Positions 8,225-14,252 of a stretch of DNA of 64,000 nt are shown here, in pieces. Origin of the DNA: Acanthamoeba castellanii str. Neff (Eukaryota > Discosea > Longamoebia > Acanthamoebidae); NCBI RefSeq assembly GCF_000313135.1, contig NW_004457618.1, positions 492,782 to 556,781 on the forward strand. Direction: 5' to 3'. Within the stretch, counting starts at the first letter, position 1. Each line of letters begins with the position of its first letter. The notes beneath the pieces were generated by a model, which worked only from the letters and a program-made list of their open reading frames with translations, did no database searches and had not been told where the DNA came from. Made by a program: the position numbers and the translations under genes.

Positions 8225-8509
8225 TGATCTTTATTTTCATTGTTTGAAGTATGGAATAAATAGAAGAGCTTTTAACGAGGCCAAGACGTGTATCTTCTTA
8301 GTCGATGTGAAGAGTGCGGTCAGCGTAGCCGTGGGCAGCCTTGTGCTTCTCGAAGAGCGCCGAGAGCGCAGCCACGTAGCGTTCGTGCAACGCGTCCACT
8401 GCCTCCGCGCTCGGGTTGTCCGTCTGTGTCGGTGGGTCGTTGGTGAGCTCCCCCCCTCTCACAGTAGCTCATGCTTTTAATTGTGCACAGCTGCGTACCT
8501 TGGTCACGG

Positions 8510-8513
8510 GTAT
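8510..8513. repeat. Target-site duplication GTAT, left copy
   Basis: The left flank reads CACGG-GTAT and then the element begins with TAGTATATAC. The right flank reads GTAT-GGGCTCG. Removing the element and one GTAT restores CACGGGTATGGGCTC, whose reverse complement continues the acyltransferase frame (GEP-I-PVT). Confidence 0.9.
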
Positions 8514-8631
8514 TAGTATATACGCGTTACGGTTTCGCCTACACACCCCTTACGGTTTCGCCTACATGCCCGTTACGGTTTTCCCGACACTCCGGAACGA
8601 CCCTCTACGCTCTCACCCACGCTACGCATTA
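8514..8631 (+). repeat. Left terminal inverted repeat
   Basis: The outer 58 bases are identical to the reverse complement of the right end, starting TAGTATATACGCGTTACGGT. A 32-base left-only segment follows, then 28 more shared bases ending GCTACGCATTA. Inside are two copies of TTACGGTTTCGCCTAC and a third degenerate one (near 8526, 8550 and 8572), which could be protein-binding sites. Confidence 0.93.
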
Positions 8632-8648
8632 TATGTATTGGGAGGTGA

Positions 8649-11600
8649 CTAACACGGCCAGTGGAGAGGGTCCTCTTCGAGGAGAGAGAGGAGTTCACTC
8701 CAACTGATCTCCTCATCGGGGTGGGTAACGTCATGAGGGGGAGCTCGTCCCGGCGAGGACGGGCACGTGCGCGTATCGCCTTCCGAAAGAAAGCTATCTA
8801 GGATTCCGTCAAGGAGGGCGCGCGTATCGCCTTCCGAAAGAAAGCCATCTAGGATTCCGTCAAGGAGGGCAAGGTCCTCGTGGGCGTCCCACGGAGTTGC
8901 ATCGGCGTGTAGCTGCTCGCGTGCGGAGTAATCAGCGACAATCATCTCGTGCATTTCGACCTCGACATCGCCTATCATGTGCGTGAGTACGCAGAGTTAA
9001 AACCTGGAATGCAGGAGCGTGTATTCGTACCATCCGCGGGACCGGCATCGGCTTGTAGCTGCTCGCGTGTGGGGCCATCGCACACTGTCCTGTCCTTCAT
9101 TTCGGCCTCAACGTCCCCTATCCGGTGTGAGTGAGTCAGTATGCAATTCGAGAATGGTGAGTGAGGGGAGTGAACCAAGGGCGGAAATGAACTCCTGCAG
9201 CTCATCGTTTGGGGCAGTAATGCAAACCGCATTACCATCACCACGTCCGGTGAAGCAGTACTCATGAGGCGTGACAGTCGACAGACCCTTCGATCTTGTT
9301 ACGACTTAAAGGGAGGTCAGTCTTTCCGACTCGAAATGAAAAGGTAGAAAGGGGTACCTAGTATGTAAATCGTTCCACCGAAGAATTTGACGAGCTCCTC
9401 CGCCTTCGATACAATCGGCATTCGCCGGTTGGTTTCGTTCTTCGTCGGTGTGTTTGCTGGCCTTGCTGAAAGCTGAGGGAACAACCCAACGCCGCGTAGA
9501 AGACAGTACAGGTTTTGGAGTTGTTGGAGGTCGACCTGTTCGAGGAGCTCGTGGTGTGGAATGTCGGGGAAGTACTCGATCTAGTCTTGTGAGTAGGAGA
9601 TTCCTACTGAGGTGTGAAAGGGGGTACCTACCTTCCTTCCTTTGTTTGAGACGCGCTTAGTGAGGAACAAGATGTCGTTGTTGGGGAAGTCTCTCTGGTA
9701 CGCCCTAACCATGCTCAGTAAAGTGGAATATCGAGAGTTCCTGTTGGAGGGAGAAGCTGTTTAGTATTGCTTTTGAAGACGGTTAGGTGAACATGGTACC
9801 ATCTCGATGATCGTAGCCGCTTTGCAAACGGTAGATTTGTTTCCATTCGGACTCGCCCAGGATCAACTGCGTTGGATGGAAGCCATGAGTGTTGATTGTG
9901 AAAAAGGGGAGGGAATTGTTTATACGTTGATACGGTGGAGATGACCGAGGAGGTGGCCAGTCAGGCCGAGTGGATGTCACTTGATCTAGTGGAAGATCTG
10001 CGGAGGGACAGATGAGTAAATGTGAAAAAGTGATTGATAATAAGGGAGGGAGAGTACCAGTACGGTGCGTATTGTTCTCTGTCTTAAACACCGAGCCGAA
10101 CAGTGACTGTTCACCACTAATGACCATAGCTTCGAAGTTGTTGAGGTTGGTCAACGTGCCACATGACGGGCAGTTGATCGCGAGATCTTTCAGGATGAGG
10201 TTGTGCGAGGGATCCACAGGGCATGGCCACGCGCTCACGAATCTCTGCACTTGATCGACGATAAAGTCACGTTGCGCCTGGCACAGTTGGGAGGCTTCGT
10301 GGTGTATTGTTGGCATGGTCTTCCGAATATAAGTAGTGAGAGCATCGGCATCCGGGGCCAAGTCTGTATGCAAAACTCACAACGTGTTAAGCTCCGCTAT
10401 ATCAGATGTATGGTCAGTGAATACCGTTTAACAGAACTGGCGAGACGAGGACGGGCTGGGGGACGGGCGTGGAGCGAGCGTCAAGGAAGATGTAGAGATT
10501 CTTGACCGGCGGAAGGGAAGAATCGAGTTGCTGAAGCCGTGTGTTCATCGTAGAAACGAGGAAGAGGCGAAGCTTCTCGATAAGGAGGTGCACAAAGCTA
10601 TTTGTGCAGAAACTGACCCGCGCATGGATGTGTTCTTTCCCCATAACGGGTCCTGTTTCCGCAGCAAAAGCTGTATGCCATAGGTGAGCTAATCATTGAG
10701 GGTTACTGCAACGGTGGATAAGAAGACGTTCAGGTCATCGGCGTTCTTTGGTGGGAGTACATACCGCAGTACACGCGACTTAAAACGTGGCGCCAATGCT
10801 GCTCATGATCGCCGGGGGGGAGGAATTCAAAACACCTGCGAATCTCGATTAGCATCTGCCACTGAGTGGGGAAAGTAGTGGCGTGCTGAAGGAGGACATA
10901 CTCCATTACACGTTGACCTCCATCTCCGAAAAGAAGTGCGTCAACCGCGGTGGACAGCGCACTGACGTAGTCCCGCCGCTGGATGCCCAGGGGGTCGCCA
11001 CGGAAGGATCGTCCAGTCACGGTGATGCCAAGTGAGTAGTGCCGAACCTCCCTTCTCTGTTGTACAACTTCTACCAGGAATGGACGAAGACACTGCATCT
11101 CGCAAGATTAAGAGCGAGGATGATAATCATGAGTTGGTGGCCCATACCTCTCGTAGAGTTTGCATCCGATACTGCATTCGTGAGAGTAAGAACTCTCGGC
11201 CCTCGGCTGTGGTGAGGTCCAGCCTGGGCGGTGGGGTCTCCTGCTGGTCGTAGGTGAGTAGTAGCTTACGATATTTCGTGAGGCCCTTCGACAGCACTGG
11301 CGTGTGGCGATCGAGTGCAGAATTGGACTGCGCGACGATGTTGAGTAGGGTGACCTCTCCCTCGATGTCCTCTCCAATATCGCGTATCTCCTCGTCGCTG
11401 ATGGTCATGATGTGGAGGGGTTCGTCGATGATCGGGGGTGTGCTTGTTGAATTTACGCGGCTGCTGAGCATGCGTTTCAACCTGCGATGGTACTCTGCAC
11501 GCTGGTGACGGAAAGGTTGGCAATGAGATGGTACAAGCCAATAAACATTGCACTTACCATTGCGGTGGGGTCATCGTGGGAGGGAAGGCAGAGCGAGTTG

Positions 11601-11987
11601 ATGGTATTCTTCAGAATCTGACTCGCCACGCTGGTGCAATCTGACGCAGCCAGCTGTTCGAGGGTGACCTGGAAAACAATGCGTGAGGATCGAGCAGCCC
11701 GTTAACACCATGGTGGTGGACGTACCTCGTCCAGCGCAGAGACCACCCTGGCTGCTGGCGTTGTTACGTCAGCAGCAGGGGATTCATCTGCGGGTGGTGT
11801 GGGCTGAGTGGATGGTGGTATGGTGGGCTTGCTTCTCTTTGGCGTAGAGGCAGTAGTCGGCCTCGCCAAAGATTTTCTTTTGTTATCTGTGGGCGCCTGG
11901 AGGGTGGGGGCGTTAGTACATATAGCAGTTTAGTCCGCAAGACCTCACCTTTAGAAATGGCGTGTGGAATGGCCTCCTCTTCGACAT
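8649..11987 (-). CDS. Element-encoded 817-residue protein of unknown function
   Basis: Fifteen exons give one open frame: 11949-11987, 11726-11896, 11558-11668, 11148-11501, 10836-11092, 10765-10778, 10425-10670, 10058-10363, 9981-9997, 9800-9866, 9632-9741, 9358-9580, 9176-9304, 9031-9117 and 8649-8971. The N terminus is basic and Pro/Thr-rich (MSKRRPF, TPKRSKPTIPP). The middle is globular, with a single CPSCG motif near residue 450 and a GKEHIHARVSFCTNSF block. A later region has GYDHRDGTLDIPLLL, EYFPDIPHHELLEQV and SKAEELVKFFGGTIY. The C-terminal ~150 residues are acidic and repetitive. I do not recognise the family. Position and co-orientation with the endonuclease suggest it takes part in mobilisation (end binding, strand transfer or replication), but that is inference. 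The 14-bp and 17-bp exons are the least certain. Confidence 0.7.
8766..8870 (-). repeat. Two tandem ~51-bp coding repeats in the element gene
   Basis: Two adjacent, almost identical 51-bp units containing CGCCTTCCGAAAGAAAGC encode two copies of a 17-residue acidic/hydrophobic unit (LLDGILD.FLSEGDTR). They lie in the C-terminal tail of the 817-residue protein. Confidence 0.85.
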
Positions 11988-12091
11988 CTTCCGCCTCTAC
12001 AAAGAACGAAGAAGAACTGGCAAAAGCCGAAAAGGTATTTACAAATAATTTTCTTCCAGATTATTGTGAAAAAGGTGAGTTTCTTTGTATT

Positions 12092-13182
12092 TTAGAGGCG
12101 CTTTAGGGCGGACATCTGTTTCTTCCTTTCGTCGTACTTCTGCCGCCAAACCGATCCACGCTTCATATACTCCGTGTCGCGTAAGTGAGCAGCCAACAGG
12201 TTGCGTTGGGGCACCTTCTGGCCAAAGTCGAGGAACGGGCCGATGGTGTCGATGTAGGACAGCATGTTCGACCTGTTCCCCCAGAAGATCGAGTTCTGAC
12301 CGACGCGACCGCCCCACGGGAACTTCTCGTTGATCTGGTGAAGAAGCGGAATGCACCCGGCTTGGCAGATCTTGATGTTACGAAGAGAGAAGCTGCCCTC
12401 GGCGATCGTTAGCCCGGCGACATAGGCCGCGGTCACGCGCTCCCACTGATGGTCCTCGTGGTTTCGGTCACGTTGACCACGCAGCCGGGCCTTGTACTCG
12501 TCGGTGGTCGGCCTCCTCCGATCTGAGCGTAGGAACTCCTCAGCCGTCCTGAGCTCGGCGTACTTGATGACGGAGTTGGCGAGGAGGACCTGGAGCAGCG
12601 GGTGGTCGGGCGACGCGACGGTGAAGTTGAGGGAGTATAGATTCCTCAGCGGTGGCTTCTGCTTGCTCTTGCGGATAACTCCAACCGACCAGCGCTGGAC
12701 AATCCATTCGAGCTCCGGCGCCTCTCCGGCCGCGCAAGCCTGCGTGAAGTCGATCCGTATCGCGCCTAAATGGAGGGGAGCATAAGTGAATAGACCACTC
12801 CATAGGGGGTACTACGCCGGAAATATGTACCTCGCACACCCAAACTTCCGATGTGGACAATGACTGAGCCATCACCGTCGAAGAAGCCGGCGATCTTTTG
12901 CTTGTCGTGCTCGGTGGGTTCGACACGTGCATGTTGCTCGAAGTACTCCTCGATAACCTCGCTTGTAAGACGTCGAGCCCGCTTATGATTGATGTTGAGC
13001 GTAGTGCGTGTGAGGAGGAGGGACGCATGACCGTTCTGGACGATCCAGGCCTTGATCTGATCGTCCGTGGGGCGGGGTCCGAGGTCTGGAAGGGGATCGT
13101 CCTGGAAGCAGGGAGCTCCTTCGCGGCGGCGGATCTGTCTATACTGGCGGACATGCGGTTGGATGTGGAAGCGACAGTCCAT
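12092..13182 (-). CDS. Two-motif LAGLIDADG homing-endonuclease-like protein
   Basis: Exons 12831-13182 and 12092-12765 (intron 12766-12830, GT-AG) give 341 residues. Motif 1 reads KIAGFFDGDGSV at about residue 96 and motif 2 reads YVAGLTIAEGSF at about residue 235. These are the two LAGLIDADG helices of a single-chain, pseudo-symmetric enzyme. Both carry the final acidic residue (Asp, Glu) that binds metal for DNA cleavage, so activity is plausible. An ~95-residue N-terminal extension rich in Arg/His precedes the core. Such enzymes cut long sites and leave 4-nt 3' overhangs. They usually live in organellar or viral introns and inteins; a spliced nuclear copy between inverted repeats is unusual. 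Nothing in the sequence suggests a maturase or intein. The start is the first ATG, 139 bp inside the right repeat. Confidence 0.88.
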
Positions 13183-13320
13183 GGTGCCGCTGTGGTCGGT
13201 GGTGTTGGGTAAAACGTTAATATTATACTGATTTGTTTTATATTAACAATAACGTAGGCAAATGCATAAAGCCAATAATAATCGCAGGTGTAGGCAGAAT
13301 AGAACCAGTGTATCGTGGGC

Positions 13321-13406
13321 TAATGCGTAGCGTGGGTGAGAGCGTAGAGGGCATGTAGGCGAAACCGTAAGGGGTGTGTAGGCGAAACCGTAACGCGTAT
13401 ATACTA
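13321..13406 (-). repeat. Right terminal inverted repeat
   Basis: This 86-base end is the inverted copy of the left end without the 32-base left-only segment. Its outer 58 bases match exactly. It contains two copies of the TTACGGTTTCGCCTAC motif. Confidence 0.93.
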
Positions 13407-13410
13407 GTAT
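13407..13410. repeat. Target-site duplication GTAT, right copy
   Basis: This directly follows the element end CGCGTATATACTA and matches the four bases at 8510-8513. Confidence 0.9.
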
Positions 13411-14176
13411 GGGCTCGCCCACTACGGCCGTGAGCGGCACGGCGTAGGGAGCCGCGAGGAATCTGCGCCGCGGGCGATACAGGCAACCACGTCAGCAAGA
13501 GAGGCGCTCGAGAGATGCATTATTGGAACAGACACGCGTACCGGCCCATGAAGCGCACGACGGCCACCCGGAACCGCTTCGACACCCACATGCGCCATCG
13601 CATGCCCCACGAGTAGGTCTACAATATAGACCGAGAGGTAAATGACGTCAGCAGCCAAAAAAGGGGTTTATTGTTTATTTGATTTTGGAGGTTTGTGAGC
13701 GTAGGTACCTTGTAGAGGGAGGTCTCACCAAATACGTAGATAGGCACGAGGTGGGCGCCCTCTTCCATGGCGAGCCGAACGAAGCCCTTACGCGACTTCA
13801 GATGAATGTTTTCCTTGCCGTACTCGGTCCTGATCTGCTCGGCCTCGCCTACGCCACCATCATCATCATCCACAGAGCAACACTCATTGACAACTCATCT
13901 GCGCGATCAATTGTTGCAACCGTACCACCGGGGTACACAAGCACGGACAAGTGGTGGCGAAGCACGTTGGCGGCCACCGGCTTCGAGGCGTCGACACACG
14001 ACGTCCACAGCCACAAGTCGCGAATGAACGGAATCTGAAGGAAACGAGAAGAAGAGAAATGTCAGTCCACTGGGAACCGGCATACGCCCGAGCATTCCTC
14101 AGAGCACCTTGAATGCGGAGGAGGCCACCAAGTCGCGGGTCTCGATGCCCGGGAACTGTTTGTTCCACCTACGTTG

Positions 14177-14252
14177 TAGTTTGTTTGTTTGTTGTTTGTT
14201 GTTTGTTGTTTGTTGTTTGTTGTTTGTTGTTTGTTGTTTGTTGTTTGTTGTT
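14177..14252. repeat. GTTTGTT simple repeat in an acyltransferase intron
   Basis: About 75 bases of TGTTTGT/TTG repeats lie entirely within the intron 14169-14306. Confidence 0.9.

Follow-up and report, generated by a model that had tools for sequence, protein, structure and literature searches.

Among selfish DNA, transposons are usually regarded as distinct in kind from homing elements. We analysed a window of Acanthamoeba castellanii str. Neff DNA (the whole stretch examined, 64,000 nucleotides, on contig C61 of a 38.4 Mb genome assembly of 250 contigs), in which a discrete 4.9-kb element at positions 8514–13406 interrupts a DGAT2-type acyltransferase gene of fat synthesis. The element is delimited by terminal inverted repeats (TIRs) and carries two genes, one for a LAGLIDADG endonuclease and one for a large protein of no recognisable family. 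Two described systems stand closest to it. KolobokP comprises DNA transposons in which a His-Me homing endonuclease accompanies a DDE transposase (Kojima and Bao 2022, PMC9587614), and the WHO homing genetic elements of Torulaspora and Lachancea are nuclear LAGLIDADG elements at metabolic genes (eLife 2020, PMC7282813). LAGLIDADG enzymes cut to leave 4-base 3' overhangs (PMC7282813), as an earlier note on this DNA had held. Among homing-type nucleases in eukaryotic transposable elements, a 2017 review (PMC5718144) has at least GIY-YIG and PD(D/E)XK and does not name LAGLIDADG in the passages drawn on here; statements about the other two papers are likewise limited to passages of each.

The present locus resembles KolobokP in being, on our reading, a eukaryotic DNA transposon with a homing endonuclease beside another protein, in its putative 4-bp duplication, and in an apparent excision, suggested by an element-free protein, P0003, that would change few flanking bases. 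In contrast, KolobokP has a His-Me finger enzyme and a recognisable DDE transposase with a C/DxxH signature, whereas the present element has a LAGLIDADG enzyme and no recognisable transposase; KolobokP also has a TTAA target, long terminal direct repeats and 5'-RR...YY-3' ends, where this element has GTAT (or TA) and inverted ends. With the WHO elements, which are able to invade other loci, it shares a nuclear LAGLIDADG gene tied to a metabolic gene and variable between strains. As KolobokP illustrates, the presence of a homing endonuclease in a TIR transposon is not in itself new; no TIR element with a LAGLIDADG enzyme and no recognisable transposase appeared among the literature matches listed (titles and the starts of abstracts, with most subscription papers outside their scope). 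Our preferred, though tentative, interpretation is a complete, probably recent and polymorphic cut-and-paste DNA transposon that represents a family not yet described; its transposase would be the large protein, unrecognised as such, and the LAGLIDADG enzyme would be an accessory.

Ends and copy number of the element

The ends and the sequences adjoining them are as follows (positions in the window).

8514–8631, plus strand: left TIR, 118 bp, its outer part with three 23-bp subrepeats
13321–13406, minus strand: right TIR, 86 bp, with two 23-bp subrepeats
8510–8513, no strand assigned: GTAT adjoining the left end, left copy of a putative 4-bp target-site duplication
13407–13410, no strand assigned: GTAT adjoining the right end, right copy of the same putative duplication

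Counted from the outer tip, the two arms are exactly complementary over 58 bp, and a second exact run of 31 bp lies on the inner side (8601–8631 and 13321–13351), the two runs overlapping by 3 bases in the right arm. In the region 8300–13700, counting pairs separated by 1 kb or more, the 58-bp run is the longest exact inverted repeat, compared with a maximum of 15 bp in 200 dinucleotide shuffles, and the earlier note's description of the repeats as precise is borne out. The left arm has 32 bases more than the right and contains a third copy of the 23-bp subrepeat. Since this extra block is the sole difference between the arms, the insertion is likely young. None of the six direct-repeat families detected in the same region links both termini. 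GTAT is present again 2 bp inside each end of the element, within the palindrome GTATATAC (8514–8560 and 13360–13406). An exact 17-mer of the element end occurs in three viral contigs, which we took as chance.

The earlier note had proposed a search for further copies with the ends and with both proteins. In the 38.4 Mb, the end sequence, each of the two proteins and a 20-bp pattern of the ends all led to a single copy, a lower bound from searches of an assembly that may be incomplete. At up to three mismatches the 20-bp pattern gave five matches, four of them the element's own ends, compared with two for a reversed control. With a single copy, neither a constant duplication length nor a target consensus can be derived.

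Interruption of the host gene and length of the duplication

Both flanks belong to one DGAT2-type acyltransferase gene, and the insertion lies within its coding sequence.

8298–8509, minus strand: 3' part of the host gene, comprising PVTK, an intron and the last exon with the stop codon
13411–14883, minus strand: 5' part of the host gene, through codon GEPI; the 5' limit is the chosen ATG

Taking out the element together with one GTAT gives the host junction VVGEPIPVTK, and the rejoined protein matches Pfam DAGAT with an E-value of 4.1e-61, so the host exon is interrupted as cleanly as had been claimed. The closest named relative, from Balamuthia mandrillaris, is 56% identical. The query used for the Pfam, genome DGAT and relative searches contained splice guesses (R instead of V, and surplus residues following VTK) that were later corrected from P0003. 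An intron of the gene contains a 7-bp tandem repeat at 14174–14252 (11 copies of TTGTTGT on the plus strand).

TIRs and a short target-site duplication, the pair of features expected of a cut-and-paste DNA transposon, are thus both present, the duplication being GTAT or TA. In the second case the ends read TA-GTATATACGCG...CGCGTATATAC-TA, and their collapse would yield VVGEPILIPVTK; the empty site expected on the minus strand is CCCATACCC under the GTAT reading and CCCATACTAATACCC under the TA reading. We compared these with the length of the host linker, defined as the residues between the G-x-P-I/L/V motif and the next histidine, in 97 homologues. The linker could be measured in 62 of them (P0003 included), the other 35 being without the motif, and has 17 residues in 38, 18 in 7 (P0003 among them), 19 in 2 and another length in 15. 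The GTAT-collapsed host protein has a 17-residue linker and the TA-collapsed protein one of 19 residues. Because GTAT thus leaves the linker at its commonest length, the duplication is likely the 4-bp GTAT described in the earlier note, which flanks both ends, with TA as a possible other reading and the length accordingly presumed. Aligned in the register of the duplication, the target ATACCCGTGAC and the element end ATACGCGTTAC share 9 of 11 bases, a likeness that may be chance.

The TA reading would make the element an ordinary TA-duplicating transposon, Tc1/mariner-like or other, with an unrecognised transposase; the endonuclease would be carried as a passenger, its expected overhang matching the duplication by accident. 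The junctions can be read in this way, but the 19-residue linker that this requires is seen in just 2 of the 62 measurable homologues and no DDE family matched in Pfam, and we consider this explanation improbable.

An element-free product of the same gene

The database protein P0003 (source 'lgn'; its longest contig has 1521 nt) represents the product of this host gene in the absence of the element. Compared with the coding sequence in the window, it has one substitution (L for R), one extra isoleucine and a first residue M where the window has V. Its junction reads VVGEPIIPVTK, so that the additional isoleucine lies precisely at the insertion point. We infer that P0003 derives from spliced RNA, because its exons span about 1.6 kb of genomic sequence even without the element, which exceeds its contig. 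A search of the assembly, which gives a lower bound, revealed no other near-identical DGAT gene; DGAT loci beyond C61 share no more than 55% identity. As P0003 represents the same gene uninterrupted and no near-identical second gene was found, the sequences indicate that the insertion is polymorphic, with some allele or strain lacking the element. At codon 13553–13555 the window encodes Arg (VVRFMGR), in contrast to the Leu of P0003 and the nearest relatives (VVLFMGR); constraint on the interrupted copy may be relaxing, or the difference may be allelic or due to sequencing.

Among the removals that we enumerated around the junctions, GEPIIPVTK results from three, all equivalent, and each leaves CCCATAATACCC, the two ATAC copies minus one base. 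As the source of P0003, intron-like splicing out of the element was considered and rejected, none of these three removals having the form GT...AG. At the protein level the extra codon could be an excision footprint or a repaired cut at GTAT; native variation is a possible alternative. The sequence GEPIIPVTK is one codon from GEPILIPVTK, expected under the TA model, and one from GEPIPVTK, expected under the GTAT model, and favours neither.

The extra codon also bears on an explanation in which the homing enzyme drives insertion. Here the LAGLIDADG enzyme would cut the DGAT gene at GTAT, the element would be joined to the 4-nt 3' overhangs via the large protein or by host repair, and fill-in would give the 4-bp duplication; P0003 would be a target once cut, mis-repaired and now resistant. 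In keeping with this, the presumed length of the duplication equals that of the overhang, the extra codon is located exactly at GTAT/ATAC, and in five survivors of WHO cutting the cut site is scarred by small indels, 1-bp changes (PMC7282813). The internal GTAT near each end and the ATACCCGTGAC/ATACGCGTTAC resemblance could point the same way, or be irrelevant. Nevertheless, the argument is built on sequence, the 4-bp length is itself putative, the change in P0003 is 3 bp compared with 1 bp in the WHO survivors, and the single copy offers neither a recurring 4-bp duplication nor a target consensus. The agreement between duplication and overhang, central to the earlier note, holds if GTAT is the duplication, but 4-bp duplications are also produced by DDE transposons such as Kolobok (PMC9587614). 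We therefore regard homing-driven insertion as possible, if on the unlikely side. The fuller proposal, in which the enzyme opens the target of a TIR transposon at GTAT, the overhang becomes the duplication and element-free alleles such as P0003 are scarred by the same cut, seems doubtful.

The LAGLIDADG endonuclease

12092–13182, minus strand: LAGLIDADG endonuclease gene, exons 13182–12831 and 12765–12092, encoding 341 residues, identical to database protein P0001

The protein contains two motifs, IAGFFDGDGSV at residue 97 and VAGLTIAEGSF at residue 233, 136 residues apart. The acidic residue of the LAGLIDADG motif is catalytic, and in both motifs an acidic residue precedes GS. The two-motif pattern, which was written after the motifs were seen, occurred in none of 200,000 shuffles. 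PHROG 5046 (labelled HNH endonuclease) matches residues 97–213 with an E-value of 1.4e-5, and the Pfam scores fall below the curated cut-offs (LAGLIDADG_3, 18.7 compared with 22.5 bits; LAGLIDADG_1, 14.7 compared with 23.1 bits). The second half alone has no match in Pfam, and the protein has none in NCBIfam. From its profile scores the endonuclease is a diverged LAGLIDADG member, having the motifs and scoring below the Pfam cut-offs.

Among PDB sequences, the engineered chain of 3mx9, which we take to be derived from I-CreI, matched with an E-value of 1.1 and I-MsoI with 1.5, both weaker than a surely spurious cytochrome oxidase match (0.023). The first motif, IAGFFDGDGS, aligns with LAGFVDGDGS of 3mx9, a weak likeness that ranks below the spurious match, and two motifs are present. 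The gene differs from the I-MsoI and I-CreI type in having a GT-AG intron and in sitting within a TIR element with no group I intron found: no Rfam family, group I introns included, reached its gathering threshold in the window. A protein search (1562 candidates) gave no relative at E ≤ 1e-3 beyond the identical P0001, and prokaryote genome contigs yielded no close relative either. A prediction by AlphaFold2 without homologues had a mean predicted local distance difference test (pLDDT) score of 35.4. Searching the genome for other LAGLIDADG genes with PF14528 and PF00961 gave none at E ≤ 1, a search in which the element's own gene also went unreported and equally diverged genes would be missed.

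A WHO-type homing genetic element, spreading by repair copying between alleles, could account for the endonuclease if the TIRs and GTAT were the remains of a captured old transposon. The single locus, the presence/absence difference, the metabolic-gene target and the LAGLIDADG enzyme all suit such an element. However, the WHO enzyme is an intein-zinc finger fusion with CxxC, whereas P0001 contains no CxxC; and WHO elements duplicate and carry 3' fragments of the host gene, whereas the last DGAT exon was found once on C61 (a lower bound). The precise TIRs and the second open gene would be left unexplained, and the WHO paper contains 'inverted repeat' 0 times, with no second element protein mentioned in the passages drawn on (PMC7282813). 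We judge this origin to be very unlikely.

The large second gene

8649–11987, minus strand: second gene, 14 exons in our model, encoding 860 residues of no recognisable family; the last 511 residues equal database protein P0002, and the first 349 are from the model only

All 13 introns of this gene are GT-AG and 51–76 nt long; with that of the endonuclease gene, the element has 14 GT-AG introns in the same size range, and both genes have open frames. Since P0002 is identical to the last 511 residues, the splices in that part are supported. P0002 starts 15 codons into exon 6, at a place where retention of intron 5 would create a stop; because it begins there, the first 349 residues come from the splice model and could belong to a separate gene. 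The 860-residue model replaced a first model of 885 residues after P0002 revealed a further intron. The 885-residue version was used for the genome copy search, the protein search and the first Pfam scan, the 860-residue version for PDB, and residues 1–349 and P0002 separately for the second Pfam scan. The two intact spliced genes of the earlier note therefore stand, in their open frames, GT-AG introns and identity with P0001 and P0002, except that the large protein has 860 residues in the model and not 817.

The protein has a basic N-terminus, one CPSC and an acidic C-terminal tail. Two internal repeats encode part of this tail, a 51-bp unit repeated at 98% identity (8769–8870) and an 83-nt unit (8899–9127) whose copies are 75% identical and separated by an intron. 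No relative other than P0002 was found at E ≤ 10 among the best 7991 candidates by shared words, which were about 487–1549 residues long, so that a short N-terminal protein would be missed. AlphaFold2 without homologues was uninformative for the last 511 residues (pLDDT 33.8). The 860-residue model contains four DxxH strings, and no DDE profile matched in general libraries, none of which is transposase-specific.

By eye, the protein resembled an XRN/FEN nuclease, and this candidate was rejected with a hidden Markov model (HMM) built from the genome's own XRN exons. The HMM scored -0.3 bits for the whole protein and -1.6 bits for residues 301–700, the latter being reached by 109 of the 411 shuffles listed (1000 made). 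XRN_N matches in the genome lie on C80 (85 kb), C116 (31 kb), C179 (15 kb) and C215, besides the long contigs C189 and C190; a viral origin is possible for some of these contigs.

With the large protein matching no family, the two-motif LAGLIDADG protein is the only recognisable enzyme of the element, as the earlier note had concluded. Integration of a small virus-like or plasmid-like TIR element, such as a transpoviron or polinton-like element, has a precedent in the TIR-flanked viral insertions reported in Acanthamoeba genomes (PMC11702301, passages drawn on here). Set against this, the element is 4.9 kb long, intron-rich and has just two genes; neither protein matches a capsid, polymerase or integrase family in Pfam; phage records contain no match to the endonuclease; and viral contigs gave no close relative of the endonuclease or of the last 511 residues of the large protein. 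Such an origin appears remote.

A proposed cut-and-paste transposon with an accessory endonuclease

We favour the cut-and-paste reading because several features converge on it: TIRs built of 23-bp units with GTAT flanks, a restored VVGEPIPVTK with a 17-residue linker, the extra codon of P0003, LAGLIDADG motifs that have been kept, open frames, and the KolobokP precedent. The bounded ends, the GTAT flanks, the broken host coding sequence and the element-free product of the same gene are direct observations; to these we add, as what we infer, an excision, a recent age and a role for each enzyme. Most likely, the large protein would be a transposase, diverged beyond recognition, that works on the TIR subrepeats. 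The LAGLIDADG enzyme would most likely have been captured as an accessory and would cut donor DNA or alleles lacking the element, after which repair would copy the element, a role that would parallel the second route proposed for the His-Me endonuclease in KolobokP. We consider it no less likely that the large protein is an unrecognised transposase than that the endonuclease drives transposition.

Several results weigh against this interpretation. No transposase family matches the large protein in Pfam (the 885-residue model, then the parts, with just weak zinc-ribbon scores) or among PDB sequences (860 residues), and its last 511 residues have no match in PHROGs or NCBIfam. The check for a hidden transposase that the earlier note had called for therefore gave no transposase profile, while the structure prediction contributed nothing on the fold. 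The 38.4 Mb yielded a single copy and no solo ends, which would be unexpected if the transposon were active. In addition, the codon gained in P0003 could be native, as 24 of the 62 measurable homologues have a linker other than 17 residues.

Implications

The link between transposons and homing elements that this locus suggests is directly testable, since it comes with a predicted cut (GTAT in one gene), a predicted empty site and an element-free product, P0003, already in hand. On the more modest interpretation the element would still represent a new transposon family, in which a LAGLIDADG accessory accompanies an orphan protein of about 860 residues that is a candidate new transposase. Should the endonuclease open the target, the element would transpose by means of a homing enzyme and a novel partner protein. 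With a LAGLIDADG nuclease as its sole recognisable enzyme, a TIR element would, if true, join transposons and homing elements.

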